Positions 4,207 through 63,756 of a stretch of DNA of 64,000 nucleotides are shown here, piece after piece. How positions within the stretch are numbered: position 1 is the first letter of the stretch; the number at the start of each line of letters is the position of its first letter. The stretch lies in assembly GCA_019112735.1 (NCBI GenBank), contig DXIS01000020.1:1-64000 (forward strand), read 5' to 3'. Both the position numbers and the translations under genes were made by a program. The notes below the pieces were generated by a model. It did not search any database and was not told the origin of the DNA. It worked only from the letters and a program-made list of their open reading frames with translations. The DNA is from Candidatus Mediterraneibacter guildfordensis. GTDB lineage: Bacteria > Bacillota > Clostridia > Lachnospirales > Lachnospiraceae.

Positions 4207-6618
4207 TTATGAACGCGCCGACAATATTTCCGCCAATACCCCATACAGGTCCGGCTCAAGATCCATTGCGGCAAGCTCCGCCAGGATCAGATGTACCGGC
4301 CTTTCTTTTCGAACCGCCTTATACAGCTGTTCTTTTACAATGTAACTGATTTCCGCCTGATCCAGGAACTCAAAGCATCGCTTCTGCACATCGTTCTTGT
4401 CAGCACGCAGTGCCGCATCCATCGTAACTTCCAGCACTTCTGATGTACGTACCGGCGGCACCGATATAATACAGGCTTTTTTCTGCCCGTCATAAGAAAC
4501 GGATACCCCGATCATATCTTCCCCGGACCTTACCATTACCGGATTTCCGCCCGGGTCCTGTTCAAACCCTGTCATTTCAATCGTATAACTGCGCACTTCA
4601 GGTATCAGCGAAGCCTCGCCCTGTGCTGCACCGATCGTAAATACAACCCGCCCGGTCTCTTTGTTTTCTTCATAATCCATCTGTGTTGTACAGCAGATGC
4701 CTTCCTTATATCCACAGGACTCATTATCATCCTCATACAGACAGAAACTTCCATTCCTGCCCGAATATACACTGATATGAAGAGATCCCGGATTGCCGCA
4801 GGTCTGCAACGGACTGATTTCATCGGTAAACGGCAGGATCGCACCCGCCGGCGCAAGTACGGGAATGCTTTCAAGGTCTCGATACAGATCGATCATCCGG
4901 CTGCCATCATACATCATCCCTGTATAAATGTCATACCATACGCCTTCCGGCAGCCACGCCCTTACTTTCGCCACATTAAGAGCATGTATCCTTGGAGTCG
5001 TAACAGGCGCAACAATCAGCGAAGAACCGAAATAATACTGATTTTTAACCTGATAAGCCTCTCTCTCTTCCGGCCATTCATAATACATCGGGATCATGAG
5101 GGGGAGACCGCACGCATAAGTCCTGTGGTTCATCGTGTACAGATACGGGGTCATCCTGTGGCGCTCACGGAGCATATCACCCATAACCTGTTCTGTTTCT
5201 TTGTTATACCGCCAGGGTTCTTTTCCATTGAACTCACCACTGGAACTATGCAGTCTCATTATCGGTGAAAACACGCCGAACTGTACCCAGCGGGCCGTAA
5301 GTTCATTGTCTCTGTACCCCATCATATGGCCGCCGATGTCATGACTCCACCAGCCGTATCCGATATTGGTCGCATTAACCGTAAAATACGGTTGGAAATC
5401 AAGGGATTCCCATGTTATCAGCGTGTCTCCCGAGAACCCGACCGGATAGCGCTGGCTGCCGGGTCCTGCATACCTCGAAAATGTCATCGGCCGTTTTCCG
5501 TTCCTTCCGATATCAAGGAAATGGTAATGATTCAGGATCCAGAGCGGATCCAGTCCTTCGACCTTGCTCACGCCGCCCTGCTGCCAGTCAATCCACCAGA
5601 AATCAACGCCTTCCTCTTCTCTGGGATGATGAAGATATTTAAAATATGCTTCGATAAATTCCGGATCTGCAAGATCACATACAACCGGATCTTCATTTTT
5701 ATAATCCACGCCCATAGCCTCGGCCATCTCTTCATACATTTCTTCACAGGCCTGGACCCCGTCAGCCGGATGTACGTTCAAGGTCACTTTCATGCCACGG
5801 TCGTGCAGACTCCGGAGAAAGCGGGGCGGATCCGGAAAGAATTCCCGGTTCCATGTGTAGCCTGTCCATCCGCTCCCATATTTGGGATCAACATCCACAA
5901 CATGCCAGTCCATATCGATTACGGCCACTGTAAACGGAAGATTCTCTTCTGCAAAACGGTCCATAAGTTCCAGATAGCTCTTCTCTGTATATTTGTAAAA
6001 CCGGCTCCACCAGTTGCCGAGCGCATATCTGGGCAGCATGGGGGTTCCTCCTGTCAGCCGGAGAAAGTCCGCTATCGCCTGTTTATAATCATGTCCGTAT
6101 CCCCAGAAGTACATATCTTTGATCCCGTGTTTTCTGGGCGCAACCCACCCGTTATCAAGAATAACCTGTGAACGGCTGTCATCCAGCACGGAAAATCCGT
6201 TTGTCGACACAACGCCGTGGTCCAGCGGGATCGCACCGTCCGCTTCATCAAGCGTCCTTGCCGTTCCGCCAAGATCGGTCGGTTCATCTCCAAACCGCCA
6301 GATACTGTGATATGCCGTAAGGTTGCCCTTTACCTGTATGCTCAACCCATTGGGAGTAAAATCTTCTTCATTATAAATAAGATGCAGGCGGGACGTATGT
6401 ATTTCTATTCCGCCATCCGTATGGACCACGCGGTACTCTGTCTTCGGGAAATCCCGGCAGAACACCATCTGAGTCGCCCTGTCTTCAAACTCCCCGTCCT
6501 CACTGTACTCCAGACGCACAAGCGCTTCGGTAAGCATTGTGATCCTGTACTTTTCTCCGGTAACCATATTTGCTTCGAGTGCCAGCGGAGATGTTTTTAT
6601 TCTGTATACTTCGTTCAT
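4207..6618 (-). CDS. Glycoside hydrolase family 31 (alpha-glucosidase/alpha-xylosidase type)
   Basis: A retaining exo-alpha-glycosidase of 803 residues. An N-terminal beta-sandwich (about 1-190) precedes the TIM barrel (about 195-560), followed by two C-terminal beta domains. The predicted nucleophile is D344 in WWIDWQQGG, and the acid/base is D398 in PVGFSGD after the family-typical SRYAGPGSQRYP stretch; HDIGGH also fits GH31. The nucleophile motif differs from the common WxDMNE form, so a specificity unlike ordinary alpha-glucosidases is possible. There is no signal peptide, so it acts in the cytoplasm on an imported oligosaccharide. It is the last gene of the binding protein-permease-permease-GH31 operon. 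A long helical C-terminal tail after the beta domains (about residues 740-803) is of unknown role. Confidence 0.93.
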   Translation of the reverse strand: MNEVYRIKTSPLALEANMVTGEKYRITMLTEALVRLEYSEDGEFEDRATQMVFCRDFPKTEYRVVHTDGGIEIHTSRLHLIYNEEDFTPNGLSIQVKGNLTAYHSIWRFGDEPTDLGGTARTLDEADGAIPLDHGVVSTNGFSVLDDSRSQVILDNGWVAPRKHGIKDMYFWGYGHDYKQAIADFLRLTGGTPMLPRYALGNWWSRFYKYTEKSYLELMDRFAEENLPFTVAVIDMDWHVVDVDPKYGSGWTGYTWNREFFPDPPRFLRSLHDRGMKVTLNVHPADGVQACEEMYEEMAEAMGVDYKNEDPVVCDLADPEFIEAYFKYLHHPREEEGVDFWWIDWQQGGVSKVEGLDPLWILNHYHFLDIGRNGKRPMTFSRYAGPGSQRYPVGFSGDTLITWESLDFQPYFTVNATNIGYGWWSHDIGGHMMGYRDNELTARWVQFGVFSPIMRLHSSSGEFNGKEPWRYNKETEQVMGDMLRERHRMTPYLYTMNHRTYACGLPLMIPMYYEWPEEREAYQVKNQYYFGSSLIVAPVTTPRIHALNVAKVRAWLPEGVWYDIYTGMMYDGSRMIDLYRDLESIPVLAPAGAILPFTDEISPLQTCGNPGSLHISVYSGRNGSFCLYEDDNESCGYKEGICCTTQMDYEENKETGRVVFTIGAAQGEASLIPEVRSYTIEMTGFEQDPGGNPVMVRSGEDMIGVSVSYDGQKKACIISVPPVRTSEVLEVTMDAALRADKNDVQKRCFEFLDQAEISYIVKEQLYKAVRKERPVHLILAELAAMDLEPDLYGVLAEILSARS

Positions 6619-6637
6619 GTCTGCCTCCTATATCAAA

Positions 6638-6665
6638 TTCAGGAACGCGCAGCCGCGTTCCTGAA
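6638..6665 (-). other. Hairpin between permease and GH31 gene
   Basis: A perfect 12-base inverted repeat (6638-6649 and 6654-6665) with a four-base loop fills the 53-base gap between the second permease and GH31. On the minus strand it is followed by only three T residues, so it is at most a weak terminator. It more likely stabilises the upstream message or partly attenuates GH31 expression. Confidence 0.7.
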
Positions 6666-6671
6666 CCCATA

Positions 6672-7493
6672 TTATCCTTTTACGGCCGATGCCGCAATAC
6701 CTGCAATAAACTGTTTCTGGAAGAACAGATAGATCAGCAGGACCGGTATGATCGAGATCGCAGTCGCCGCGAACAGCGCACCGTAATCTGTTGAATACTG
6801 TCCGTTGAACATTTTCAGTCCGACAGACAGAAGCTGTTTTTCCTGTGTATTGATAACCAGGTAAGGCCAGAGGTAATCTTCCCAAGCCCAGAGGAACTGG
6901 AATATCGCAATACTGGAAATACCATTCTTTGACATCGGGAAAACAATCCTGTGGAATATATAAAATTCATTGGCGCCGTCTATTCTGGCCGCCTCCAATA
7001 TCTCATCCGGCAGTGAAGCGATGTGCTGCTTCATCATAAAGATGCCGAAACCGCTGAACATCGCCGGAATGATCAGTGCTTTATAACTGTCCATCCAGTC
7101 AAACGCCTGGATCATGGAATATTTGGGAATGATCGTAACGCACCACGGGATCATCATCGTAGAGAGCACAAATCCGAATATAAGGTTTCTGCCCTTAAAA
7201 CGATATTTGCTGAGTACAAAACCGCAGATCGTACTCGTATAGATCACAATAACCGTAATCGCGATCGTGACAAATAAACTGTTCGCGAAAAAACGCATAA
7301 AATTGAAGCGTTCATTCATGTTAATGTAGTTTTCTGCAGTAAATATCTGCGGAAGAAGATGCTGTTCCAGTGCCATGATCTCACTGTTCTTTTTAAATGA
7401 AGACGCAAGCATCCAGACAAATGGATAAACTGTAACGACACCAAGCAGCAGCAGGATTAAATTCAATGCGATTTTGCTTATTTTTCTTGTCAT
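6672..7493 (-). CDS. ABC sugar transporter permease (MalG/CUT1 family)
   Basis: Inner-membrane channel subunit of a carbohydrate importer. The 273-residue protein has about six transmembrane segments and the EAA loop that docks the ATPase, seen as EAARIDGANEFYIFHRIVFP, the CUT1 hallmark. The start is set at 7493 (MTRKISKIALN), with AGGAGG six to eight bases upstream and 11 bases after the previous stop; a longer reading with 16 extra residues would overlap the upstream gene. It pairs with the permease at 7505-8383. No ATPase gene is present in the operon. Confidence 0.93.
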   Translation of the reverse strand: MTRKISKIALNLILLLLGVVTVYPFVWMLASSFKKNSEIMALEQHLLPQIFTAENYINMNERFNFMRFFANSLFVTIAITVIVIYTSTICGFVLSKYRFKGRNLIFGFVLSTMMIPWCVTIIPKYSMIQAFDWMDSYKALIIPAMFSGFGIFMMKQHIASLPDEILEAARIDGANEFYIFHRIVFPMSKNGISSIAIFQFLWAWEDYLWPYLVINTQEKQLLSVGLKMFNGQYSTDYGALFAATAISIIPVLLIYLFFQKQFIAGIAASAVKG

Positions 7494-11217: not shown

Positions 11218-11253
11218 AAAAAACTGAGCGGCTCAAAAACCGCTCAGTTTTTT
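11218..11253. terminator. Bidirectional terminator between regulator and acyl ligase genes
   Basis: An 11-base GC-rich stem (11221-11231 with 11240-11250) is flanked by A residues on the left and T residues on the right, so it works on both strands. It ends the LacI-family gene (+) and the acyl-activation operon (-); the ligase stop codon overlaps its T-run. Confidence 0.92.
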
Positions 11254-12760
11254 AGAATCTCTTGATCTTTCTTGTTGTTGTCTTCTCGAACTCCGTATCC
11301 CTTACGATCAGGCTGTATATCTTTTTCTGCGGCGCCGCCTTCAGGTTATACTCATCGATAACCTCCTGCAGTTTTGCCCGCACGTCTTTGATCCGTTTCT
11401 TCTTTACATAATCCTGATCCGGATAGATCTCGGCCTCGATGACGCCGTTCTTTTCGCGCACCAGCACCTCGCCCACCAGGCGGTTCGTGTTGAGCGCATT
11501 CTCCAGTTCCTCCGGAGAAACGTTTTCACCGTTCTTGGTGATGATCAGGTTCTTCTTGCGGCCGGTCAGATAGACGAATCCGTCCTCGTCCGCATAGCCC
11601 AGATCTCCGGTCTTGAGCCAGCCGTCTTCCAGTGTCTCGGCGGTCTCCTCCGGCATCTTATAATATCCCTGCATCACACTGCTGCCCCGCACCCAGAGCT
11701 CGCCGTCCACAGTCTTCGCCTCGCAGTTCGGGATGAGCTGGCCCACAGAATCCTTGCGGATGTTCCAGCTGACCGTTGTGCTGATGACCGGCGCGCACTC
11801 GGTCATGCCGTAGCCCTGCAGGATGGTGATGTCGTATTTATTAAACAGGTCGATGTATGCCGGATCCAGGTATGCCCCGCCGCTGCAGATGGTGTGCAGC
11901 TGCTTCCCGAACACCTGGCTCTTGACGATCTTCGCCGGCAGAAGCGAGGCTTCCTCAAGCTTCTTTGCCATGGTCTCGATCATCAGCGGCACCATCAGGA
12001 TCATTTCCGGCTTGAAGAGCTTGATGTTCTTCGCCACACGCATCAGAGAATCATTGATGCAGATCACGGACCCGAGGGAAATGCCTTTCAGGATATCCAT
12101 GCTCAGGCAGTATGCGTGATGGATCGGCAGCACGGACAGGATCACCGTCCGTTCCGGGATCTTCATATCCAGGCAGGTCGCGTTCTCCGCCACATTTCTG
12201 TGAGTGAGCATAACGCCCTTGCTCTTTCCCGTGGTCCCGGATGTAAACATGATCGTACACAGCTGGTCCGGTTCCGGCTCATAGTCGAAGCCGCCCCGGT
12301 TCTCATCCAGCAGCTTCCGCCAGGAAGACGCATGGTCGTCATGCTCCGCCTGCTGCATGGAGATCAGGGTTTTCACTTTCGGGCAGCGTTCTTTCGCGAT
12401 CGCCGCCACGTCTTTTCTCACTTCATCGTACACCAGGATGGTTGAATCAGACCGGTCGATCAGGTCGCATACATCCTCCGCCGGGAGATTCACATCCAGC
12501 GGTACGATCACGCTGCCGCTGTTGACCGTTCCAAAATAAGTCACGAGCCACGGATAAGATGTGGCGCCGATCACGGAAATGTGACTCCCCTGCTCGCCCA
12601 GGTTTTTCAGGACATTTGAAAAACCTTCGCTGTCTTCTTTTAACTGTGTATATGTTTTTGCCTCGATCTCATTTTTACTGATCTTATAGCGGACCGCGTC
12701 TTCCGGACCGTATTTTTTCTCTGTGTTGGCCAGGATCTGGCGGACTGTCGTACAAAGCAT
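11252..12760 (-). CDS. AMP-dependent acyl ligase (acyl-CoA/acyl-ACP synthetase)
   Basis: An ANL-superfamily enzyme of 502 residues that would adenylate a carboxylic acid and pass it to a thiol. The nucleotide loop is FTSGTTGKSKGV, the A5-like motif is YGMTECAP, the A7/A8 region is TGDLGYADEDGFVYLTGRKKN, and the C-terminal catalytic lysine lies in TTTRKIKRF at the very end. It resembles long-chain fatty acid ligases rather than amino-acid adenylation domains. As the adjacent genes encode a free carrier protein and a condensation domain, loading an acyl group onto that carrier is the likely job. It starts at ATG 12760 with GGAATC upstream and is 85 bases after the carrier gene. The substrate chain length is unknown. 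Confidence 0.88.
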   Translation of the reverse strand: MLCTTVRQILANTEKKYGPEDAVRYKISKNEIEAKTYTQLKEDSEGFSNVLKNLGEQGSHISVIGATSYPWLVTYFGTVNSGSVIVPLDVNLPAEDVCDLIDRSDSTILVYDEVRKDVAAIAKERCPKVKTLISMQQAEHDDHASSWRKLLDENRGGFDYEPEPDQLCTIMFTSGTTGKSKGVMLTHRNVAENATCLDMKIPERTVILSVLPIHHAYCLSMDILKGISLGSVICINDSLMRVAKNIKLFKPEMILMVPLMIETMAKKLEEASLLPAKIVKSQVFGKQLHTICSGGAYLDPAYIDLFNKYDITILQGYGMTECAPVISTTVSWNIRKDSVGQLIPNCEAKTVDGELWVRGSSVMQGYYKMPEETAETLEDGWLKTGDLGYADEDGFVYLTGRKKNLIITKNGENVSPEELENALNTNRLVGEVLVREKNGVIEAEIYPDQDYVKKKRIKDVRAKLQEVIDEYNLKAAPQKKIYSLIVRDTEFEKTTTRKIKRF

Positions 12761-12845
12761 AGTTTGATTCCTTTCCCTGCGCGCTCCCGCGCAGCTGCTT
12801 CCTGTTATTGCATCTCTTTCAATAATGGGCCTGCGGGAACCCGTC

Positions 12846-13079
12846 CTAGTTCTCCGCGCTCAGTTTCTCAAGATACGCCGCCGCTTCTCCCACTGTACGG
12901 ATGTTTGCAGCTTCTGCCTGCTCTACTTCCACATCGAATTCGTCCTCGATCTCGCCGAGCATGCTCATAAAGTCAAATGATGTGAAGCCCAGGTCTTCCA
13001 TGAAACGGGACTCCGGATGAATGTTCTCCGGCTCTACTTCAACATAGTTGCAGATGATATCTACTAATTTCTCAAACAT
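12846..13079 (-). CDS. Acyl carrier protein
   Basis: A 77-residue acidic four-helix carrier. The phosphopantetheine attachment serine is S34 in DLGFTSFDFMSML, where the usual DSL is replaced by TSF. The rest matches stand-alone ACPs (FEKLVDIICNYVEV at the start, EIEDEFDVEVEQ in helix III). It is not next to fatty-acid synthase genes, so it is probably a dedicated carrier for the pathway encoded at 11252-15829, loaded by the ligase and used by the condensation protein. A phosphopantetheinyl transferase is not encoded nearby. Confidence 0.93.
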   Translation of the reverse strand: MFEKLVDIICNYVEVEPENIHPESRFMEDLGFTSFDFMSMLGEIEDEFDVEVEQAEAANIRTVGEAAAYLEKLSAEN

Positions 13080-13124
13080 GATCTTTCTCCTTTTCTCTGT
13101 AATATTTATTTTCTGCGTCCGGCC

Positions 13125-14531
13125 CTATACTAACTTAATGATCTCTCCGATGGTCAGGTCCGGATTCTCCGCACCCTTGAACATGATCTTGCACAGATAG
13201 TAGTACAGGTATTCCAGTTCTTCTCTCGACACCGCCTTGATCTGATGCTCGAAGTTGAAGTCCAGTCCGTTGTCTTCCGGGCGGTGCATTACGGTCAGGT
13301 ACATTGCCTGCGGGCAGGATCCGTTGGGATACCATTTCGTCTTGTACCGGATGTCGCCCAGGTCGTTGAGCCCCTTCTCCTTCAGGGTAAGCGGCTGATA
13401 CGTCAGGGAGATCTGTTCGTAGGTCAGTCCTGCGTGGGGCTGCGGGTATACTTTATGACGGTGCGCAAAATATGCGGTCGGGTCATAGTTCGCATGACGG
13501 AATATCTCATTCTGCTTGTCGCGGATCGCGAACACGCCGTCGATGAACTTCATATCCTCCGGGAAAATGGTCCGCAGCGGGAAGGAGTGGATCCTTGTAC
13601 CGCCGCATTTCTTCTCCTTCAGTGTGGCGCGTCTTGCGATGGCGTTGTTGATGGACACATCCTCGAATCCGTTCATTTTCTGCAGGTAGGTCCTCAGGCC
13701 CATCAGCAGCAGACATGCCAGCGATACATGATATTTCTCACAGAAATCCATCAGTCGCTGTGTCGGCTCCTCTTCCAGGTGGAAGATATCCAGGGCTGAT
13801 TTCGTATCATCGCTTGCGCTGAACGCGGAACGCAGTTCCGGGTTCTTGAACATCTCCCTTGCCGCCTCCAGCTTGTCCCGGCCGTTGATGCCGCTGAAGA
13901 TCGGCTCGCCTTTCTCGATCTCCTTCTCAAAATACTCGGCGTCTCTTGCCTGCGCCTTGCTGCCGGCCTCGTACGCCAGGTCTTTCTGGAGCTGTTCGAT
14001 ATAGGAGGTCATCTCCTTCGGATAGGGAACACCTTCGTATTTCGCATTACAGTAGATCTCAATGATGTCCTTGAGGAATGCGATCAGAGACTGGGCGTCC
14101 ACGATCATATGATGTCCCAGGAAATAGACGCCGCTGAAGCCGTCCGGCGTCTTGATCATAACAACTCTCGTAAGCTGGGTATCCGTCATCTTGAAGGGAA
14201 CTCTTGTCCACTCCTTCATGATCTCCTCAGCTTCCTCCATGGTCTTTCCGGTGAAATCCACGAATTCGATGTCCTGATCCTCATGATCCACGATATACTG
14301 ATAATAATTGCCTTCTTTATCCTTCGCGAAACGGATCCGCATCCCTTCGCTCCGCTCATAGGCTTTGTTAATGGACTGTTTCAGTACGTCCCAGTCGATC
14401 TCGACCTCGATGGTCAGGCTGGTGCCGATGTTCAGCACGGCCGCGGTCGGGCTGTACGGCAGATAGAAAAGATGAAATCTCTGTGCTACAGTCAGCGGGT
14501 ATACTTTGTATCCCTTTCTTGTCCTCATCAT
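13125..14531 (-). CDS. Stand-alone condensation-domain acyltransferase
   Basis: A 468-residue protein of the CoA-dependent acyltransferase/condensation superfamily, with no adenylation or carrier domain attached. The catalytic motif is H140-H-M-I-V-D145 (GHHMIVDAQS), the HHxxxD form in which the second histidine is the general base. The N-terminal YPLTVAQRFHLFY corresponds to the start of NRPS C domains, and SINNAIARRATLKEKKCGG to the C-terminal lobe. It would join the carrier-bound acyl group to an amine or alcohol. It shares the overlap ATGA with the upstream hydrolase gene, so translation is coupled. Alternatives are a phthiocerol-type or wax-ester-type acyltransferase. The acceptor is unknown. 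Confidence 0.8.
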   Translation of the reverse strand: MMRTRKGYKVYPLTVAQRFHLFYLPYSPTAAVLNIGTSLTIEVEIDWDVLKQSINKAYERSEGMRIRFAKDKEGNYYQYIVDHEDQDIEFVDFTGKTMEEAEEIMKEWTRVPFKMTDTQLTRVVMIKTPDGFSGVYFLGHHMIVDAQSLIAFLKDIIEIYCNAKYEGVPYPKEMTSYIEQLQKDLAYEAGSKAQARDAEYFEKEIEKGEPIFSGINGRDKLEAAREMFKNPELRSAFSASDDTKSALDIFHLEEEPTQRLMDFCEKYHVSLACLLLMGLRTYLQKMNGFEDVSINNAIARRATLKEKKCGGTRIHSFPLRTIFPEDMKFIDGVFAIRDKQNEIFRHANYDPTAYFAHRHKVYPQPHAGLTYEQISLTYQPLTLKEKGLNDLGDIRYKTKWYPNGSCPQAMYLTVMHRPEDNGLDFNFEHQIKAVSREELEYLYYYLCKIMFKGAENPDLTIGEIIKLV

Positions 14532-15481
14532 TTTATGACTCCTCCTAAAAATGAATCCATGGCTTTCTCATATCCTTCAGTGTCCTTGTAGTAGCTTTCC
14601 CCGTGTCCCGCGCCCTCGACGATGAACTTCGTCTTCGGTGCCGCGCAGTTCTCATAGATCTTCTCCGTCATCCAGCAGGGTACGAACACATCCTCTTTCC
14701 CGTGGATGAAGAGGAACGGCACTTTTGCGTGCTTTACTTCCCTGGATGAATCACAGTCGTCAAGGCCGTAGCCGACCTTCCTCTTATTCGCCCAGTCCGC
14801 AAGCTGCAGCATGGGGAATGCCGGGATGTGGTACATGCTGTGGAGCACATGGGTGAACACATCTTTCATGGACGTAAATGCACAGTCGGAAATGATCCCT
14901 TTTACCTGGGGCGGCAGATCCAGCCCGCTCATCATGCAGACCGTGGCGCTTCCCATGGAATTGCCGTGAAGAACGATCTGTGCGTCGTCGCCGATCTTTT
15001 CGATCATCCACTCGACCCAGCGTTTCCCGTCCAGGCGGTCCATATTTCCGAATCCGATATGCTCGCCCTCGCTCCGGCCGTGGGCACGCAGGTCAACGAG
15101 CAGCATCCGGAACCCGTGCTTCAGATAGTAATTGGAAAGGCTCCCGTAATCATTGAGGCCTTCGCTCGTATATCCGTGGAAGCAGATCACGGCTTTATTT
15201 CCCTCATCACCTTTGAAATATGTACCGTGAAGCTTCAGGCCGTCATGGGAAGTGATCCACACATCCTCGTGGGGCTGTTCCAACATCCACTCCCGGCGTT
15301 CTTTCATCATGGGAATGTATTTCTCCCAGTCCACGCCGGACATCTTCATGGTCCGTTCTGTCTTCGCGTTATATCGGATCATGGTCCTTCGGTACAGGTA
15401 GGCGCTTCCCGCAACTTCCGCTGCTGCCGCCGACCCGAGAAGAGCCGCCGCGATTTTCAGTATCCTGCTCATTGTCTGCAT
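14528..15481 (-). CDS. Membrane-anchored alpha/beta hydrolase
   Basis: A 317-residue serine hydrolase. A hydrophobic N-terminal segment (about residues 6-30, rich in Ala and Leu) followed by YRRTMIRYNAK suggests a single membrane anchor rather than a cleaved signal. The catalytic triad is readable: nucleophile S175 in HGNSMG, acid D264 in HGKEDVFV and H293 in GAGHGES; FHGYTSEG is the oxyanion region. It belongs to the group often annotated as acyl or peptide hydrolases near lipid genes. It sits between the SCP2-like gene and the condensation gene in one operon, so release, trimming or editing of an acylated product is plausible. Confidence 0.88.
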   Translation of the reverse strand: MQTMSRILKIAAALLGSAAAAEVAGSAYLYRRTMIRYNAKTERTMKMSGVDWEKYIPMMKERREWMLEQPHEDVWITSHDGLKLHGTYFKGDEGNKAVICFHGYTSEGLNDYGSLSNYYLKHGFRMLLVDLRAHGRSEGEHIGFGNMDRLDGKRWVEWMIEKIGDDAQIVLHGNSMGSATVCMMSGLDLPPQVKGIISDCAFTSMKDVFTHVLHSMYHIPAFPMLQLADWANKRKVGYGLDDCDSSREVKHAKVPFLFIHGKEDVFVPCWMTEKIYENCAAPKTKFIVEGAGHGESYYKDTEGYEKAMDSFLGGVIK

Positions 15482-15496
15482 CTCCTTTTGATGTGA

Positions 15497-15829
15497 TTAC
15501 TTTCTCTTGCTGTTAATGAGATCCTTCAATTTCAGCGCTTTATCGATATTTCCTTCTACTTTCAGTTTCCCGAGCGTCACCGCCAGGATCGGATCTGTCT
15601 TCCCGTCCGCGATCTTGAACAGCGTCTCCGCGCTGCAGGTGAACATCGCATCCCGGTCAAAGTACTCATAGGGCTCGACAGAGAGCTTTCCGTCCTTCAC
15701 TTCGGCGTAGAAGATTCCTTCCGCCTCGCCGGTGATATTGAACTGATATGCCAGATGTTCATGGATATCGCTTACATCTGCATCCATCAGCATTCCTTTT
15801 ACTCTTGAAAACATATCTGCGTAGGTCAT
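15497..15829 (-). CDS. SCP2 sterol-carrier-domain protein
   Basis: A 110-residue single-domain protein like the bacterial SCP2 family: a lipid-binding fold with YEYFDRDAMFTCSAETLFKIADGKTDPILAVTLGKLKVEGNIDKALKL, where the glycine/aspartate loop before the last helices is characteristic (given here only as the motif at about residues 57-103). It would hold an acyl chain or acyl-thioester and present it to a partner enzyme. It is the first gene of the acyl-activation operon and begins 36 bases from the nearest TetR-type palindrome. RBS AGGAGG precedes the ATG. Confidence 0.82.
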   Translation of the reverse strand: MTYADMFSRVKGMLMDADVSDIHEHLAYQFNITGEAEGIFYAEVKDGKLSVEPYEYFDRDAMFTCSAETLFKIADGKTDPILAVTLGKLKVEGNIDKALKLKDLINSKRK

Positions 15830-15864
15830 AATTTCCTCCTTTTTCGACCGCGTTTACCATTTTT

Positions 15865-15921
15865 TGACCAGCGGTCATCCCTTTCATTTGTTAGATTAAC
15901 ACCTTTTTGACTGGTGGTCAA
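15865..15921. promoter_or_regulatory. Paired operators in the TetR/acyl-operon divergent region
   Basis: Two near-identical palindromes: TGACCAGCGGTCA (15865-15877, perfect) and TTGACTGGTGGTCAA (15907-15921). Their centres are 43 bases apart, close to four helical turns. The second overlaps a TTGACC that could be the -35 of the SCP2 operon promoter on the minus strand, with TAATCT 17 bases on. They are very likely binding sites for the TetR-family protein encoded at 16069. Confidence 0.72.
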
Positions 15922-16000
15922 CATGCTGTTTTATCAAAAACGTCCTCATTTTTCTGATCTTTTTTGTGCGTTTTTCTTGCTGGTTCTTTTTGATGGAATG

Positions 16001-16009
16001 TGTTACAAT
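16001..16009 (+). promoter_or_regulatory. Extended -10 promoter of the TetR-family gene
   Basis: TGT followed by TACAAT (16004-16009) forms an extended -10 element about 60 bases before the TetR start codon; no good -35 is visible. An AAGGCGAC ribosome site precedes ATG 16069. Confidence 0.5.
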
Positions 16010-16068
16010 GAGTGCTGAATTGATATCTGATTAAGAATAAATCTTCTTTTATAAGAAAGGCGACCGAC

Positions 16069-16680
16069 ATGGCTGAACGGAATGACAAATACAACCTGAT
16101 CCTTGACTCCCTGCAGAAGCTCCTGGAGAGCCGCGGGCTTCCGACGATCTCTGTCAGTGACATCGCAGAGGAGGCCGGGATCGCAAAAGGAAGCATCTAT
16201 TATTATTTTCCTTCCAAAGACGCCATCCTGGAGGCGCTGGTCGAGCGGAACTACGAACGGCCGCTGATGACGGCCAAGAACCTGGCTTCCCAGCCGGACA
16301 TCCCGCCCTTCACCCGCATGGCCATGATCTTCCAGGCATGCCGCAATTCCTCGGCCGACTATATGAAATCCGGCCAGGAAAGCAGCGTGGGCGCCCCGGA
16401 AAAAGCGCTGCTCCACCAGAAATACATGAACCATCTCATCAGTGAGTTCAAACCGGTACTTGCTGAGATCATAAGACAGGGGATCGCCGCGGGAGAGATC
16501 CGTTTTGACCGGCCGGAGGAACTGGCCGAGATCGCGCTCATCGTACTGTCCGTCAAGATGGACAATACCATTGCTCCCGCTTCCAGAGAAGAGATCGAGA
16601 ATACCATCGCCGCGTTGATCGCGCTGCTTGAGAAAGGGACGGACAATCCGCCCGGATCGCTGAATTTCCTGATGGCGTAA
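16069..16680 (+). CDS. TetR/AcrR-family transcriptional regulator
   Basis: A 203-residue repressor with an N-terminal TetR helix-turn-helix (about residues 8-55): ISVSDIAEEAGIAKGSIYYYF is the recognition region. The C-terminal ligand domain (about 60-200) is helical and of unknown specificity; TetR proteins next to lipid genes often sense acyl-CoA. It is divergent from the acyl-activation operon and two palindromes lie between, so it is the probable local regulator. A strong terminator follows the stop. Confidence 0.92.
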   Translation: MAERNDKYNLILDSLQKLLESRGLPTISVSDIAEEAGIAKGSIYYYFPSKDAILEALVERNYERPLMTAKNLASQPDIPPFTRMAMIFQACRNSSADYMKSGQESSVGAPEKALLHQKYMNHLISEFKPVLAEIIRQGIAAGEIRFDRPEELAEIALIVLSVKMDNTIAPASREEIENTIAALIALLEKGTDNPPGSLNFLMA

Positions 16681-16682
16681 TT

Positions 16683-16731
16683 AAAAAGGTACCTGCAGAA
16701 GTACAGATTCTTCTGCAGGTGCCTTTTTTTC
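16683..16731. terminator. Bidirectional terminator between TetR gene and epimerase-like gene
   Basis: A 14-base stem (16688-16701 with 16710-16723, one G-U pair) with an eight-base loop, preceded by five A and followed by seven T. It serves the TetR gene on + and the aldose-epimerase-like gene on -. Confidence 0.93.
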
Positions 16732-20413: not shown

Positions 20414-23400
20414 TTATTTTCTTTTTTTCCTGCGGATCATCTGTATCACCGTGACCGATGCCGCACACACAGCCGCAGATATAAGAAGTATATATCCAAA
20501 GACCGGACTCACCACACCGGTCTGCGGTGCGGATACCCCGTCATCCGGCTTAGCATCTCCCGGTTTCTGTTCATCGTCCGGCTTCTGCCCGTCGTCCGGC
20601 TTCTGCTCATCATCCGGCTTCTGCCCGTCGTCCGGGTTCTGCTCATCATCCGGTTTCTGTTCATCGTCCGGCTTCTGCTCATCGTCCGGAACGAATCCGT
20701 CGTTTGCCGTCAGTCTGTATGAAGCGACTGTTCCGGACACCTCGCATGCAGCCAGCAGATAGGCGCTGCCATTCCCACTTTCCGCCGCCGGGATGAAACA
20801 CAGCCCTTCCGGCGAATCGTCTCCCGCGATATCCTCGCTGAAATCTCTGGAGTTAATATAATTTACAAAGGTGCTGTTCTCCGGATCAGTTATATCATAT
20901 ACCATCACGCCGCCGACTCTTTCAAGTCCTACAAACGCGTAAGTTCTCTCCCCCACGGTTCCGACTGTCACACTTTCAGATTCCGGGCCTTTCTTTCCGG
21001 AACGGTCGTCAATGGTTTTATCATCGTTGGAGCAGTTGAAATTGTCCGGCACATACTCCGCCGTCTTTTCCTCAAAGTCGCTGCCGCTGTCGAAAACTTC
21101 TGTCAGGCAGTTATCGTCAGCTTTATATACTGTAAAGGAGCGTCCTCCGAAAAGATAATCCGTACCTTCATCCAGACCGTCATAATCGCTGCTGTCAAAG
21201 AATACCACTTTCCCGCTCAGGCCGCTGTTTTCAGCTGTGATCTTTCCTGTCGGGGAAGTCTCGCCATCTTTGAAATTACGCTCAACTTCATTAAGGTAAT
21301 CTCCCCACTCTCTGGAATCACCTTCGTTCGCGGTTACAAGATAGTCTGTACCGTCCGCAGAGTAAAGCGCGATGCTGTCCGGCATGCGGATCCCTCTGAG
21401 AGATCCGTATGTCTTTGGGTTGTACACCTCGTCTTTTTTATCAATATCAACCGGTATTACACTATAATCTTCATAGCCCGCGGAATAAATTCCGGATACC
21501 TGCAGGCTGTTCAGGTCGATCACCGCAATAGCGTTTGCTTCCTGGAGAGTCACATATGCCGTTTCATTTCCGGCTGCGATGTACTCCGGTTCCAGGTCTT
21601 CCGACGGAGCCGTATCCTTTTTCAGTACAATTCCAGCATCTGTGAGAGTCTGTCTTGCCTCCGCACTGTCATAAGCCTCAAATCCGGCATTTACCGCCGT
21701 GCCGTCAGCAAGAGAAATAATTGTAACTGTTCCCGCCGGGTCTACCGCATCTTCTGCGTATCCGTTCCGCGGTTCGCCTTCATTTGCCGTAAGAATTTTA
21801 CTGTCATCCGGCGTAAATGTTACCATATCAGGCTGTATGCCTGTCTCGTATGCCTGCTCAAATGTCAGTGTTCCGTCCGGATTGCAGGTAAACACAGCCA
21901 CCCGGCCGCTGTCTGCGTACCCCTCCGCCTGGATCGCTACCGCAAGCTTCGCGCCGTCCGCGGAAACTGCCACTGACGTCATATCTCCGTATGTAAATCC
22001 TTCACAGTTTTCTTCAATGATTGATTTCACGTCAATATCATTTCCGTCCAGCAGATCAATGCTGTCTTTATCTTCCATATCTTTAACGGCAATGGCTGTC
22101 AGACTGCCCGTCTGTCCGTTGACCGCATACGCCCATCCGGTCGCTGCATTGTAATCCACGATCTCCATAACGCCGCCGTCCGCATTTGTCATGCCCGCGT
22201 CATAACGTGCGTCCTGGATCATGTCAAGAGACGCATTTCCGTTTTCTTCGCCTGCCGTCTTAACTCCGCCGTCCGTATCCTTTGTTACGCTGAAGGAATC
22301 GATCAGTTCGTTTTCAGGTGCCGCGCTGTCCCCGGTCAGATTATATACTTCCGCAGAAATCTTATCGCCTGTTACGTCAAAAAGCACATAACTCGGGCTG
22401 TAGCTCTGGTCATAGAGCAGATTGCCATACGGAAGATTGCCCTCCATGTATGCCGCTGATCCCGTCGCACCGTTGGCAAGTACCGGATAGTCTGCATTGT
22501 TCTCTTTATCAACTTTTTCAAACGGCGTGTAGTACTGCATATCGGAGCAGCAGTTTCCGGTCAGATAGATCGTCCCGTCCGGATCTGTGTAATTATTCTT
22601 CTCCTCTTCATTCATCCTTTGACCGTCTTTAAGCACATAGCTTCTGGAGTACACATGGTCGTGTCCGCCCAGGACGAAATCTACGTCGAATTCGTCCATC
22701 ACCTGCTCAAAACCTGCGTCAACATAGTTCTCAATATCAGAATCCGCCGCATGCTTCGCCACCGTCTGGGTGGATTTGTGATGCGTCACAATCAGCCAGT
22801 CATACCGGCCTTCGTATTCTGATATTGCGGCATTCATGGTCGTACGAAAGTTTTCCACCATTGCCTCCGCCTCAGAATTATCTTTTGAAGCACTCGGCAC
22901 ACTGGCATTTCCGGCATTCTCCTCATCGTTTCCGCCCGGATACGCACCGGTATTCAGTGTAACAAAGAGCACGTTATTATAAAGATAATAATAATTCCCC
23001 TTCGTCTCCATCTCCCGGCGCTCAGTAAAATCATACTGACCTTCTTCATTCGGGGTTACGCCATTGGATTCGGAAGCATTTGCAATCTCCTCTGGTGTCG
23101 CCTGGATGTAATTCCCGTGGCTCTGGCTTGTGCCGTTGTTCTGTCCCCGGAATGTTGTCTTCACCTGCTCAAGCACCCCGTTTTCATCCACGCCTGCTAC
23201 GGACATCTCATTTGGCAGATTGAAGTGGTCCTCGAACATGTAGTGTCTGTCATGGTTCCCGACCGCCGGCGCATAGGCGATGGACGCCATCTCCTCCGGT
23301 GCGAAAAACGCCGCGTACTCGCTGGATTTGCCCCAGCTCTGGTCTTCCACCTGGTCTCCTGCGGACACTACAAGACTGACCCCCTCTGCCGCAAGCTTTT

Positions 23401-23929
23401 CCATCATAGTGGCCCAACCGGTCTGATTTGTGCCGTCCGACGGATTCCATCCACCGTTATTAGTCTCTCCGCTTTCCTTGATCTGCGGATCACTGGTAAA
23501 TCCGAATGAAAACTCATCTGCAGCCGCCGTCGTATATGTATGCGTCTCTGACCATGTCTGTCCGTTGTCATAGGATATCTGGTAGGTGTAAGAAGTGCCC
23601 GGAGCCAGTCCCTCCACTGTAGCTTTACATACCATCTTTCCGAAATCCGTATACTTCCCTGTATCCAGCTTTGTCGGTGCAGTAAGCTCACTGACCGCAG
23701 CCTCAGCTGTAATATCACCAAACTTCACCATCGCCTGTTCTGTTCCGTCCGGCGCATACCAGTTCAGATTCACAGACGCGGACGTCTCGCCCGGCTGAAG
23801 TGTCAGATATTCAACCGATACGTCTGCATCCTGCTGTACCGCAGGCTCAGCGGATGCGCAGATGCCCTGTGTGCAGAACATTGCAGCAGCCAGAACAGCC
23901 ACACCGGTCCGGTACCATATTTTTCTCAT
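20414..23929 (-). CDS. Wall-anchored metallophosphoesterase with beta-propeller-like second half
   Basis: A 1171-residue surface protein. Signal peptide with cleavage near CASAEP; a fibronectin-like domain as in purple acid phosphatases (about 30-130); a calcineurin-like metallophosphatase domain (about 145-530) with VSAGDQVED, AVGNHDRHY, THHKS and GGHDHVYSR; then a beta-propeller-like region of the choice-of-anchor I type (about 575-1090), a run of seven PDDEQK-like hexapeptides, and a sortase signal (SAPQTG, hydrophobic stretch, RRKKRK). The DxH motif seems replaced by D-P-Q (FTSDPQ), as in some PAP relatives. It would hydrolyse extracellular phosphoesters while fixed to the wall. Likely a single-gene unit; TATAAT lies at 24002-23997 upstream on the minus strand. 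Confidence 0.88.
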   Translation of the reverse strand: MRKIWYRTGVAVLAAAMFCTQGICASAEPAVQQDADVSVEYLTLQPGETSASVNLNWYAPDGTEQAMVKFGDITAEAAVSELTAPTKLDTGKYTDFGKMVCKATVEGLAPGTSYTYQISYDNGQTWSETHTYTTAAADEFSFGFTSDPQIKESGETNNGGWNPSDGTNQTGWATMMEKLAAEGVSLVVSAGDQVEDQSWGKSSEYAAFFAPEEMASIAYAPAVGNHDRHYMFEDHFNLPNEMSVAGVDENGVLEQVKTTFRGQNNGTSQSHGNYIQATPEEIANASESNGVTPNEEGQYDFTERREMETKGNYYYLYNNVLFVTLNTGAYPGGNDEENAGNASVPSASKDNSEAEAMVENFRTTMNAAISEYEGRYDWLIVTHHKSTQTVAKHAADSDIENYVDAGFEQVMDEFDVDFVLGGHDHVYSRSYVLKDGQRMNEEEKNNYTDPDGTIYLTGNCCSDMQYYTPFEKVDKENNADYPVLANGATGSAAYMEGNLPYGNLLYDQSYSPSYVLFDVTGDKISAEVYNLTGDSAAPENELIDSFSVTKDTDGGVKTAGEENGNASLDMIQDARYDAGMTNADGGVMEIVDYNAATGWAYAVNGQTGSLTAIAVKDMEDKDSIDLLDGNDIDVKSIIEENCEGFTYGDMTSVAVSADGAKLAVAIQAEGYADSGRVAVFTCNPDGTLTFEQAYETGIQPDMVTFTPDDSKILTANEGEPRNGYAEDAVDPAGTVTIISLADGTAVNAGFEAYDSAEARQTLTDAGIVLKKDTAPSEDLEPEYIAAGNETAYVTLQEANAIAVIDLNSLQVSGIYSAGYEDYSVIPVDIDKKDEVYNPKTYGSLRGIRMPDSIALYSADGTDYLVTANEGDSREWGDYLNEVERNFKDGETSPTGKITAENSGLSGKVVFFDSSDYDGLDEGTDYLFGGRSFTVYKADDNCLTEVFDSGSDFEEKTAEYVPDNFNCSNDDKTIDDRSGKKGPESESVTVGTVGERTYAFVGLERVGGVMVYDITDPENSTFVNYINSRDFSEDIAGDDSPEGLCFIPAAESGNGSAYLLAACEVSGTVASYRLTANDGFVPDDEQKPDDEQKPDDEQNPDDGQKPDDEQKPDDGQKPDDEQKPGDAKPDDGVSAPQTGVVSPVFGYILLISAAVCAASVTVIQMIRRKKRK
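20564..20689 (-). repeat. Seven 18-bp coding repeats (PDDEQK spacer)
   Basis: Seven tandem 18-base units encode PDDEQK or close variants (E to G, K to N). They form the wall-spanning linker before the sortase motif of the phosphoesterase. Such arrays can change copy number by slippage. Confidence 0.9.
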
Positions 23930-34034: not shown

Positions 34035-34081
34035 TATCACGTTTTCAAAATTTTTACATGCCTATTTTATCACGTTTTCAA
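34035..34081. repeat. Perfect 14-bp direct repeat in the promoter region
   Basis: TATCACGTTTTCAA occurs at 34035-34048 and 34068-34081, 33 bases apart (about three helical turns), between the Ech terminator and the small hydrolase gene. On the minus strand each copy reads TTGAAAACGTGATA and contains TTGAAA, so it could also serve as a -35. A regulator site is possible; nothing identifies the protein. Confidence 0.5.
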
Positions 34082-34113
34082 GATTTTTTCGTGTTTTACC
34101 CCTTTTCTTCTGC

Positions 34114-34156
34114 ACAAAAAGAGAGCGTGGACAGTTTCCAGAACTCTCCACGCTCC
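34114..34156 (-). terminator. Terminator of the ech operon
   Basis: On the minus strand, a nine-base stem (34147-34155 with 34123-34131) is followed by a T-run at 34120-34116. It sits just after the echF stop codon at 34166. Confidence 0.9.
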
Positions 34157-34165
34157 GACATTTTC

Positions 34166-34741
34166 TTACCCTTTCATCTCGATCGCTTTCTTCGGGCACG
34201 CTCCCGCGCAGATCCCGCACTCCGCGCATTTTTCTTCGTCCAGCTCCCAGATCTTTTCCTTCCGGTCGACCCGGATCGCTTCCTGCAGGCATTTCTTCGC
34301 ACAGAGCGTACAGTATACGCACTTCTCCGCATCCATCACCGGCTTGCCGCCTGCTGCCGCCGCGCCGTCGCGGGCCGCCTCTTTCTTCTCTTCCTGCGGT
34401 TTCACGACTGTATCGCTCTTCTTCATGATGTCCGGTTCCGTATAGCCTTTCTCCATGGTCAGGCATTTCTTCGGGCAGGCCAGCACGCAGCTTCCGCACT
34501 GCACGCAGTCGAACCGGCTGATGGTCCATGTACCGGCCTTGCGGTCCACCTGGATCGCCAGGGACGGACAGGCTCTCGCGCACAGGCCGCAGGTGATGCA
34601 GTCCTCAATCCTGATCGAAATGTGCCCGCGCATCCGCTCCGGGAATTCCACAGGTTCAAAAGGATACTGTATAGTTGCCGGCTTTTTAAAGAGGTTTCCC
34701 ACGATCCGTCTTGCAAGTGTAAACATTTTCGTCTTTTCCAT
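34166..34741 (-). CDS. echF: Ech hydrogenase ferredoxin-like subunit
   Basis: A 191-residue iron-sulfur subunit with two pairs of 4Fe-4S motifs rather than one pair: CITCGLCARACP and CVQCGSCVLACP in the first half, CVYCTLCAKKC and CAECGICAGACP in the second, split by a charged linker of about 55 residues. The first half is like EchF/NuoI, which pass electrons from ferredoxin to the small subunit. The second looks like an added two-cluster ferredoxin domain. Last gene of the operon, 15 bases from echE. Confidence 0.88.
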   Translation of the reverse strand: MEKTKMFTLARRIVGNLFKKPATIQYPFEPVEFPERMRGHISIRIEDCITCGLCARACPSLAIQVDRKAGTWTISRFDCVQCGSCVLACPKKCLTMEKGYTEPDIMKKSDTVVKPQEEKKEAARDGAAAAGGKPVMDAEKCVYCTLCAKKCLQEAIRVDRKEKIWELDEEKCAECGICAGACPKKAIEMKG

Positions 34742-34756
34742 ACCGTACCCTCCTTC

Positions 34757-35836
34757 CTAGCGCTCCGTGCAGCTCACGCACGGGTCGATGGTCAGGATCA
34801 GGATCGGCACATCCGCCAGCTGGCAGCCTTTCAGCATCTCCACCATCGGCGGGATATTGCTCGTCGTCGGCGTGCGCAGGCGGAACCGGTCAACGAACTT
34901 CTTTCCGCTGCCTTTTACATAATAGATGGCCTCGCCTCTGGGCTGCTCGATCCGCACGAAATATTCGCCGTCCGGATTGCCTTTCACCGGCACGCTGATG
35001 TCGCCCTGGGGGATCTTGCCGATGGCTTCCCTTATCAGATCAAAGCTCTGGAAGAGCTCTTTTATGCGGACCTCGCATCTTCCGTAGGAGTCGCCGTCTT
35101 TCGAGATCACCGGCTCCACGGTCAGGTCTTTATACGCGCCGTACCCGAGCAGGCGGGCGTCATACTCCACGCCGCTGGCACGGAGCATGGGACCTACCGC
35201 GCCCTGAGCGATGGCGTCGTCCTTCGAAAGGATGCCCACGCCTTTCAGACGGCTCTGCACGGTATAGTCATGCAGGAAAGTCTTCGCGATCGGTCGCAGT
35301 TCGCTCTCGATCTCATCGATGGCGCGGAGGATGTCATTGAGCATGGTGCTATCCATATCCTTCTGCACGCCGCCCACCTGGTTGACGGAATGGATGATCC
35401 GGCCGCCGGTGGTCTCATCGAACATATCGAGAATCTTCTCTCTCAGCCGCCAGCTCTCCATGTGGAGACTTTCGAATCCCATGGCGTCGCCCAGCAGGCC
35501 GAGCCACAGCAGATGGCTGTGCACACGGCTCATCTCCACCCAGATGGTGCGGAGGTATTTGGCCCGGTCAGGCACCTCGATATTCATGATCTGCTCCATG
35601 GCCAGACAGTATCCAAGGCCGTGTCCGCAGCTGCAGATCCCGCAGATCCGCTCCGCGATATACGTGTATTGTTTGAAATCTCTTTTATCTACCAGTTTCT
35701 CCAGTCCTCTGTGGACGAATCCGATGCTCGGGATCACACCGACCACGGTCTCATCCTCCAGCACCAGATCCAGATGCACCGGCTCCGGGAGCACAGGATG
35801 CTGTGGACCGAACGGTATAATACTTCTCTTTGCCAT
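34757..35836 (-). CDS. echE: Ech hydrogenase large subunit ([NiFe] site)
   Basis: Carries the Ni-Fe active site. The 359-residue protein has the N-terminal ligand motif RICGICSCGH (C65, C68) and the C-terminal motif DPCVSCTER (C353, C356), ending with R359. So the four cysteine ligands are present. It belongs to group 4 (Ech/NuoD-like): GPQHPVLPEPVHLDL at the start matches NuoD-type proteins. Group 4 hydrogenases often carry a cleavable C-terminal tail; here the protein ends at the metal motif, and no endopeptidase gene is seen in the window. Confidence 0.95.
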   Translation of the reverse strand: MAKRSIIPFGPQHPVLPEPVHLDLVLEDETVVGVIPSIGFVHRGLEKLVDKRDFKQYTYIAERICGICSCGHGLGYCLAMEQIMNIEVPDRAKYLRTIWVEMSRVHSHLLWLGLLGDAMGFESLHMESWRLREKILDMFDETTGGRIIHSVNQVGGVQKDMDSTMLNDILRAIDEIESELRPIAKTFLHDYTVQSRLKGVGILSKDDAIAQGAVGPMLRASGVEYDARLLGYGAYKDLTVEPVISKDGDSYGRCEVRIKELFQSFDLIREAIGKIPQGDISVPVKGNPDGEYFVRIEQPRGEAIYYVKGSGKKFVDRFRLRTPTTSNIPPMVEMLKGCQLADVPILILTIDPCVSCTER

Positions 35837-35841
35837 ATTCC

Positions 35842-36192
35842 CTACTCCTTATCCTTAAACGGCGTCGTCTGGTCGATCCGGTACAGCCTGTCCTGATAAT
35901 CCGGCTTGATCCTTCCGATCTTCACGCCGAACAGCTCTGCCGCCTCATTTTCCTGAATATACGCGCACGGATAGATCTGTGTGATGCTGGCCACTTCCTC
36001 GTCTTCCTTCGGTTCCAGCCGGAGCGTCACCATATCGTATCCTCTGCAGAATGAATAGCTCATCTCGTATCCGCCCTCAACCGTTGTGGCGCAGATCTGC
36101 ACGAGTCTCCATTTATCCGTCTTCATATGCACGATGGCCGGGAAAAACTCCGACATTGAGATTTTTCTGATCTCGCTTCTGTAATCATCCAT
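35842..36192 (-). CDS. echD: Ech hydrogenase subunit D (NuoC-like)
   Basis: A 116-residue small soluble subunit related to the 30-kDa subunit of complex I. The conserved part reads VEGGYEMSYSFCRGYDM and TQIYPCAYIQENEAAELFGVKIGR. It is shorter than NuoC, as in Ech complexes. Gene spacing to echC is six bases and to echE five bases, typical of a tightly packed operon. Confidence 0.9.
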   Translation of the reverse strand: MDDYRSEIRKISMSEFFPAIVHMKTDKWRLVQICATTVEGGYEMSYSFCRGYDMVTLRLEPKEDEEVASITQIYPCAYIQENEAAELFGVKIGRIKPDYQDRLYRIDQTTPFKDKE

Positions 36193-46361: not shown

Positions 46362-46418
46362 TGATAAATGATCATCAGTCACCTTAAAAATATACATCCA
46401 GATACGGAGGGATCAATC

Positions 46419-50998: not shown

Positions 50999-51018
50999 CC
51001 GGATCCCGGCCGGCACTT

Positions 51019-63475: not shown

Positions 63476-63483
63476 TAAGACTC

Positions 63484-63741: not shown

Positions 63742-63756
63742 GTAAAAAGAGCAAAT

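Follow-up and report, generated by a model that had tools for sequence, protein, structure and literature searches.

The gene run at 11252-16680 of the window, by which we mean the whole stretch of 64,000 nucleotides of Candidatus Mediterraneibacter guildfordensis DNA that was analysed, is probably an N-acyl amine (fatty acid amide, FAA) cassette of the kind built from a stand-alone ligase, an ACP and a stand-alone condensation protein (C), in an extended, lipid-regulated form. The initial annotation had presented it as uncharacterised and as fitting no known layout; however, ligase, ACP and stand-alone C are the layout described for the FAA systems of gut Clostridia (PMC13142362), which include OaaC, a free-standing condensation enzyme of FAA synthesis (PMC13142362). 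The FAA core is not new, and the novelty may lie in the extended cassette, found in a clade separate from that of OaaC. Because of its hydrolase, SCP2 and TetR parts and its distinct condensation clade, the cassette is set apart from the three-protein system of OaaC.

The open reading frames annotated initially, five on the minus strand and one for TetR, were all recovered, and Pfam agrees for all six:

11252-12760, minus strand, ligase (AMP-binding; Pfam AMP-binding, 1.4e-63)
12846-13079, minus strand, ACP (Pfam PP-binding, 6.1e-13)
13125-14531, minus strand, stand-alone condensation protein of the FAA type with the motif HHMIVDA (Pfam Condensation, 2.7e-39)
14528-15481, minus strand, alpha/beta hydrolase with an N-terminal helix (Pfam Hydrolase_4, 1.9e-15)
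15497-15829, minus strand, single-domain lipid-binding protein SCP2, which opens the run (Pfam SCP2, 1.4e-13)
16069-16680, plus strand, divergent TetR-family regulator (Pfam TetR_N, 4.8e-15; TetR_C_39, 5.2e-10)
16683-16728, no strand given, terminator-like hairpin of 19 pairs 3' of TetR (consensus match only)

The ATGA overlap noticed earlier is the four bases shared by the 3' end of the hydrolase gene and the start of the condensation gene. To judge from its sequence, the hairpin behind TetR likely marks the boundary of the cassette. Terminator-like sites over the whole stretch number 6, against 5.7 in shuffles. Two neighbouring genes were rejected as parts of the cassette because they are not conserved: that for an aldose epimerase (20/80 loci) and, downstream and convergent, that for LacI (2/80). 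C is not fused to adenylation or carrier domains, as it would be in a modular NRPS; the proteins are separate and single-domain. A modular NRPS/PKS remnant was ruled out, as fused domains are absent according to Pfam, and so was a defence system, for which PADLOC gave one marginal TetR match only (18.1 bits).

Among solved structures, OaaC (PDB 12KH; E 2.3e-112) is closest to the condensation protein, and the next PDB sequence follows at 6.2e-9, so that OaaC is a nearer relative than the NRPS C domains are. Its Condensation domain spans residues 9-464 of 468 according to Pfam, and the structure model has the C-domain fold (pLDDT 78.8). A length of 468 aa, as compared with 465 aa for OaaC, falls within the 300-520 aa of free-standing FAA C proteins (PMC13142362). 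Additionally, HHMIVDA agrees with the motif of 127 FAA C domains, (D/H)HxxxD followed by S (42%), A (36%) or G (17%) (PMC13142362), and stand-alone adenylation and carrier proteins adjoin C at 11252-13079 and in its relatives. The OaaC homodimer dissociates on holo-ACP (PMC13142362), a property that is not required for FAA membership. The initial annotation had been prepared to abandon its reading should the nearest relatives of the condensation protein prove to be known transferases from a pathway already described. This is the case for the nearest solved relative, but the identity to OaaC is 39% over 456 positions and the two proteins belong to different clades.

In a tree of OaaC and its relatives, without starter or LCL domains and with deep order and rooting unsettled, C of the window falls in a set of 39 rows (SH-aLRT 95) and OaaC in a set of 13 (SH-aLRT 99). 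L044 (partial C), L176, L177 and L086-L165 were kept out of this tree. As starter C domains are absent from it, FAA membership rests on the score gap, the motif and the gene context. The two clades differ at 21 clade-specific positions, including 146, 148, 307, 312 and 314. The motif of the window's clade is [D/H/N]HxxxDA, its last residue being Ala in 39/39 rows, as against Ser in 12/13 of the clade of OaaC; C of the window neither groups with OaaC nor carries DHRxxDS. The catalytic residues that were initially called intact are so here (HHMIVDA, S34 of the ACP and S175/D264/H293 of the hydrolase), but within the clade the first H of HHxxxD varies: this residue is D in 28 rows, H in 6 and N in 5.

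At 39% identity to OaaC and with 21 conserved, clade-specific positions, the acceptor could be a different compound, an alcohol included. Some C domains take alcohol acceptors. The product of these enzymes could thus be an ester or some other acyl conjugate (an acylated polyol, a lipoamino acid or a hydroxy compound) instead of an N-acyl amine, which we regard as improbable, as the nearest characterised relative forms amides from free amines. In the OaaC pathway, ligase, ACP and C convert a fatty acid and a free amine to the amide (PMC13142362). The acyl activation, carrier and stand-alone C proposed initially to join a fatty acid to an amine match what the nearest characterised relatives do.

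The best NCBIfam match of the ligase is a long-chain-fatty-acid--CoA ligase subfamily, although the ligase scores under the cut-off of this and of every other family among the 25 listed of 101 matched; it would act as OaaA does, activating a fatty acid and loading the ACP. The phosphopantetheine serine of the ACP is S34 (GFTSFD), which at least 97% of 114 aligned ACPs share at this position. The hydrolase triad is invariant in 15/15 aligned orthologues, its N-terminal helix comprises residues 2-34 in the structure model, and its nearest fold is that of the P. furiosus esterase Pf2001 (E 4.8e-18). For SCP2, each of the four listed relatives with a structure carries sterols or is a non-specific lipid carrier, and the carriers of the cassette include the gut bacteria Claveliimonas bilis and Merdimonas faecis, as if the donor were a sterol-derived or bile acid, carried by SCP2 and conjugated to an amine. 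This is very improbable: the best family match of the ligase is of the long-chain fatty acid kind, the 25 listed families include no bile-acid ligase, and OaaC uses fatty acids.

The gene-order search that had been proposed found the genes together. The order SCP2-hydrolase-C-ACP-ligase recurs in 77/80 of the best named loci and in 35/38 loci drawn from the family, which indicates that the arrangement is not due to chance, although the two counts are not independent, since the sets overlap (e.g. L057/L089 and L058/L090, each pair being on contigs of equal length). In the same two sets, the hydrolase gene lies upstream of C in 80/80 and 38/38 loci, the ligase gene is at its expected place in 79/80 and 37/38, SCP2 adjoins the cassette in 78/80 and 36/38, and TetR is present in 75/80 and 32/38. 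In other families, hydrolase-C-ACP-ligase is retained at six loci, four of them with an adjacent PPTase gene (3/4 confirmed by Pfam). The missing PPTase, treated initially as an oddity, is no anomaly, since two PPTases are encoded elsewhere in the genome. Among viral contigs, 23 pattern matches were obtained, none of which was confirmed as a relative.

The TetR gene and the operon share one operator-bearing promoter region, which bears out the initial placing of TetR in the cassette:

15835-15851, minus strand, possible extra operator half-site GGTCGAAAAAGGAGG adjoining the ribosome-binding site (from sequence only)
15863-15879, minus strand, candidate TetR operator 2, GATGACCGCTGGTCAAA (conserved palindrome)
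15893-15921, minus strand, promoter-like element: TTGACC, 17-base spacer and extended -10 TGTTAATCT (conserved pattern)
15906-15922, minus strand, candidate TetR operator 1, GTTGACCACCAGTCAAA, overlapping the -35 box (conserved palindrome)

The 17-bp palindrome is likely the TetR operator. We counted it in divergent TetR/SCP2 intergenic regions of 20-1200 bases, 110 in total and 103 distinct after the removal of 7 duplicates. With the consensus derived from the very regions counted, it occurs at no more than 2 mismatches in 103/103, with two sites in 88/103; before duplicate removal there were 204 sites, as compared with 0.2 in shuffles. The promoter pattern is present in 102/103 regions (shuffled mean 0.06) with the extended -10 form TGnTAnnnT, which was picked after inspection of the sequences, whereas 29/103 pass with a stricter -10 hexamer; a simple sigma-70 scan did not have the cassette promoter among the sites listed. 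In 99/103 regions one palindrome overlaps the -35 box and a second follows the -10 box at a distance of no more than 40 bases. In its own 2.4-Mb genome the palindrome has only two exact matches, both at the cassette promoter. In 17 relatives, the operator pattern gave 30 hits and the reversed pattern 29; since the control was that high, the pattern exceeds expectation by placement and not by number. When placement was compared by hand with that of SCP2, for the operator pattern alone, 29/30 rows lay at the cassette promoter, equal to 25/26 distinct sites, as four palindromic sites had been counted on both strands. Exact matches to the palindrome were absent from 2 of these 17 genomes.

SCP2 was matched in 39/39 genomes with C of the window's clade (clade A), as against 52/358 genomes without it; a literature search for SCP2 with condensation domains returned nothing relevant among the matches listed. 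TetR, palindrome and SCP2 are kept without an FAA-type C gene at L184, L185, L186, L188 and L191, at the fourth of which a broken ligase fragment adjoins SCP2. A search with a positive control did not find FAA-type C in the genomes of these five loci. Profile searching for C returned nothing in 13 SCP2-only genomes but also missed NRPS-type C in G373 and G157; we therefore base the absence of C on the search with the positive control and on a single-protein search, which does find the NRPS-type C of these two. Conversely, SCP2 is absent beside the cassette at L074, L038 and L166. SCP2 and the enzymes can each occur without the other, so the chemistry does not require SCP2.

That TetR, palindrome and SCP2 outlast FAA-type C at the five loci, together with the ligase remnant in L188, would suit fatty-acid defence or scavenging, in which TetR and SCP2 sense and buffer harmful free fatty acids, the ligase, ACP and C detoxify them to amides, and host signalling is a side effect. 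We find this somewhat unlikely, as the enzymes are present without SCP2 in other lineages. It shares its chemistry with the FAA cassette reading and differs in purpose. More speculative than the FAA cassette itself, and less likely than not, is an autonomous TetR-operator-SCP2 module, a fatty-acid sensor and buffer, joined to a membrane esterase and FAA enzymes and making a host-active, clade-specific N-acyl amine with a new acceptor only upon the arrival of dietary or host lipid.

For the FAA cassette as we favour it, family chemistry suggests that the ligase would adenylate a fatty acid and load holo-ACP, primed by a PPTase from elsewhere in the genome. By analogy with OaaC, the condensation protein would transfer the acyl group of acyl-ACP to a small, free amine and release the amide. 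The hydrolase, probably membrane-held via its N-terminal helix, may split an ester lipid to supply the fatty acid; SCP2 may ferry the fatty acid or the product through the cytosol, though either role could differ. TetR would repress the single promoter through two operators, over the -35 and behind the -10, and would be relieved on binding a fatty acid, an acyl thioester or the product. The amine, the fatty acid, the TetR ligand and its lipid sensing, SCP2 lipid handling and the hydrolase role are those that we infer.

Human GPCRs respond to FAAs of gut Clostridia (PMC13142362). According to a review, Eubacterium rectale makes OEA via the FAA route (PMC11979265); our reading does not draw on this statement. 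The arrangement with a lipid-binding protein, an esterase and a switch recurs across many related gut bacteria. If the clade is an FAA system, this widespread cassette carries its own switch and probably a lipid carrier, and the timing of amide production, the signal of TetR and the amine of the ...DA clade become testable, the operator being a ready reporter for an inducer search.

Among known regulators, Bacillus FadR, a firmicute fatty-acid TetR, resembles TetR of the window in the HTH part (NF053878, 43.5 bits), far under the cut-off of 200 bits; the palindrome of the window is limited to one promoter region in its own genome. Starter (lipoinitiating) NRPS C domains such as that of RzmA have the same fold (7c1l, TM 0.76) and share the acyl donor with FAA C (PMC13142362), but here there is no fused adenylation or carrier domain, and NRPS C domains in the PDB are far less similar in sequence to C of the window than OaaC is. 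The FAA clusters of Chang et al. 2021, as described in PMC13142362 and in reviews, likewise have discrete A, ACP and C acting on a fatty acid and a free amine, and some may belong to the window's clade. The OAA pathway of Coprococcus eutactus (OaaA, OaaACP, OaaC; PDB 12KH) also consists of a stand-alone ligase, ACP and C, and the active-site motif of C is here, as there, of the reported FAA type. However, C of the window lies in another clade than OaaC, with ...DA in place of ...DS, and to the three proteins described for the OAA cluster a hydrolase, SCP2 and TetR with its operator are here added.

All six genes that the initial annotation had claimed for this cassette, five on the minus strand for acyl activation and a TetR gene beside them, are present where it had placed them, as judged by ORF coordinates, and their products were assigned by Pfam:

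11252-12760, minus strand: AMP-binding ligase
12846-13079, minus strand: carrier protein (ACP)
13125-14531, minus strand: condensation domain, stand-alone (C)
14528-15481, minus strand: alpha/beta hydrolase
15497-15829, minus strand: SCP2
15863-15879 and 15906-15922: palindromes (putative operators)
16069-16680, plus strand: TetR
3' of TetR: terminator-like hairpin, 19 pairs

The minus-strand run from SCP2 to the ligase has gaps of 15, -4, 45 and 85 bases (from ORF coordinates), the second being an ATGA overlap, and the TetR gene is divergent from it. As the hairpin lies behind TetR, and the ligase and LacI genes are convergent at their ends, the unit is probably bounded on both sides. The C protein is identical to that of the MAG Candidatus Mediterraneibacter quadrami and is the sole match in its own genome (2.4 Mb, about 90% complete).

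A PDB sequence search with C retrieved 12KH, OaaC of Coprococcus eutactus, with an E value of 2.3e-112, the second-best sequence being a piece of microcystin synthetase (6.2e-9). According to the accessible part of a preprint (PMC13142362), OaaC acts in a three-protein pathway in which OaaA activates a fatty acid, the ACP is loaded and a free amine is condensed; the 127 C domains of fatty acid amide (FAA) enzymes described there carry (D/H)HxxxD, with Ser (42%), Ala (36%) or Gly (17%) as the next residue. The motif of the window's C is HHMIVDA. Its AlphaFold2 model (pLDDT 78.8) has a C-domain fold, and the 50 fold matches listed for it (structure library to 8 April 2026) included C domains of the calcium-dependent antibiotic and the RzmA starter domain, and did not include 12KH. 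The core of the cassette is of a described kind: the initial annotation had guessed its chemistry well, but its label of uncharacterised is not supported.

In a tree of 67 proteins, in which long branches meet and the root and deep order are not settled, the window's C and OaaC fell into different sets, the first of 39 proteins (SH-aLRT 95), the second of 13 (SH-aLRT 99). The final motif residue is Ala in 39/39 of the former vs Ser in 12/13 of the latter; 78 columns are conserved alike in both sets and 21 are conserved but different, a comparison from which the amine used by the window's clade cannot be read. The two proteins share 39% identity over 456 positions. Judged by sequence, the window's C is placed outside OaaC's own clade.

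A scan of named genomes for C confirmed at least 571 relatives among at least 597 pattern matches, and the best 80, with C identity of at least 71%, were retained. The order SCP2-hydrolase-C-ACP-ligase was kept at 77 of these 80 loci, and at 74 together with the divergent TetR. Six loci were incomplete: L145, L153 and L158 end 314, 1113 and 277 bases from C on the side concerned, L161 has an upstream stretch of 1719 bases, and at L123 and L132, which have more than 5 kb upstream, TetR was not found. The five-gene cassette of L132 (C identity 76%) comes from a MAG named Candidatus Faecalibacterium intestinavium, reflecting either transfer or a binning error. Among 397 Lachnospiraceae genomes drawn, 39 carried a C of the window's clade; at the 38 loci besides the window, the hydrolase always adjoined C (38/38), all five genes were present at 35, and all five with TetR at 31. 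SCP2 and TetR are absent beside the cassette at L074 and L038 (the contig of L038 starts 1866 bases before C), the C of L044 is shortened and runs directly into a partial ligase, and TetR alone is missing at L033, L036, L077 and L081. With the order kept in both samples, the proposed operon is real and conserved.

In the family draw, 12 OaaC-like loci have a ligase and an ACP in the order C-ACP-ligase. SCP2 was not found in these 12 loci, two of which are cut short upstream; five of them contain, in the stretch covered, a hydrolase that is more distant in sequence and, at L043, lies on the other strand. Outside the family but in the same class, the order hydrolase-C-ACP-ligase recurs at L166 and L170-L174, again with no SCP2. 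As the hydrolase occurs in loci without SCP2, it is the wider companion, and SCP2 and TetR are the narrower ones. Four of these loci have a PPTase-like (4'-phosphopantetheinyl transferase) gene, confirmed as Pfam ACPS except at L171, where it was assigned by clustering only (bases from the C frame):

L166, +1671: PPTase-like gene
L170, -1641: PPTase-like gene
L171, -1640: PPTase-like gene
L174, -1793: PPTase-like gene

A different TetR-type regulator adjoins the OaaC-like genes in 9/15 loci (L042, with Pfam TetR_N and TetR_C_8, and eight others), and these cassettes may have a switch of their own. L052, L054 and L055 encode an OaaC-side C (DHRIMDS), and neither a ligase nor an ACP was found up to about 6 kb away; these orphan genes possibly have another use.

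The TetR-SCP2 intergenic region contains a 17-bp palindrome, TTyGACC-nnn-GGTCrAA, which was present in 103/103 distinct regions with up to two mismatches, in at least two copies in 88 of them (101 with up to three mismatches), and about never in shuffled regions. Of 103 neighbouring pairs of palindromes, 99 have starts 43-45 bp apart. The promoter pattern TTGACn-(17 or 18)-TGnTAnnnT, whose -10 form was fixed only once sequences had been inspected, was found in 102/103 regions vs a shuffled mean of 0.06; in 99/103, one palindrome lies over the start of the -35 and a second up to 40 bases behind the -10. Throughout the window's own genome the exact palindrome pattern matched twice, both times at the TetR-SCP2 promoter, and in 17 relatives 29 of the 30 matches listed lay at the cassette promoter; a reversed control pattern gave 29 matches in the same relatives, their places not being listed. 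This arrangement is the putative layout of a pathway-specific repressor, and we infer that TetR binds the palindrome.

SCP2 matches occurred in 91/397 family genomes: in 39/39 with a C of the window's clade vs 52/358 others, as genome lists compared by hand. We examined 20 separate SCP2 loci, 17 from genomes without such a C and three from genomes with one (G056, G022, G029). The divergent TetR was kept at five (L184, L185, L186, L188 and L191), each with at least one palindrome. A repeat search, in which the positive control was detected, found no FAA-type C in the genomes of these five, including G016, which is 87% complete; G373 gave only an NRPS module (22% identity). One locus keeps a remnant:

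G031:C9:84450-96782, 5172-7113 (L188): TetR, palindromes, SCP2 and, directly behind SCP2, a broken ligase fragment

Because this fragment is kept and a full cassette (L032) exists in the same genus, the L188 lineage probably lost the enzymes and retained the sensor and lipid carrier. Such retention suggests that SCP2-TetR serves a use of its own. At the other four loci, loss and never having had the enzymes cannot be told apart.

The hydrolase was modelled (pLDDT 87.1) as an alpha/beta-hydrolase body preceded by a long helix at the N terminus (residues 2-34), and S175, D264 and H293 are invariant in 15/15 sequences. Among solved folds, Pf2001, an esterase of P. furiosus, came nearest, PET46 and feruloyl esterases followed, and human monoglyceride lipase ranked lower. 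The model fits an esterase or lipase that would free fatty acid; removal of the product would also fit. The helix may be read as a membrane anchor; only 6/38 orthologues passed a hydropathy test (threshold 1.6), a good share of the ORFs as chosen beginning past the helix and the helix of others being short and Ala/Gly-rich.

Elsewhere in the window lie:

20414-23929, minus strand: 1171-aa protein; domains: purple acid phosphatase N-terminal, metallophosphatase, choice-of-anchor I
20560-20689: 18-bp tandem repeat near the 3' end of its gene
34058-35896, plus strand: ORF, 612 aa, overlapping an opposite-strand ORF
46368-47342, plus strand: DegV-family protein
50980-53511, plus strand: ORF, 843 aa, overlapping an opposite-strand ORF
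63482-63743, plus strand: large signal recognition particle RNA (185.3 bits)

The DegV family includes the fatty-acid-binding FakB proteins, and its member here could be linked to the uptake of outside fatty acid. The 612-aa and 843-aa ORFs had no Pfam match at 1e-5 and, as each overlaps an opposite-strand ORF, may be mechanical.

When the main text of the FAA-enzyme paper (PMC13142362) was searched for SCP2, hydrolase and TetR, none of them was found. Set beside the OaaC pathway, what may be new here is the extended, switch-controlled form of the cassette, together with its separate clade.
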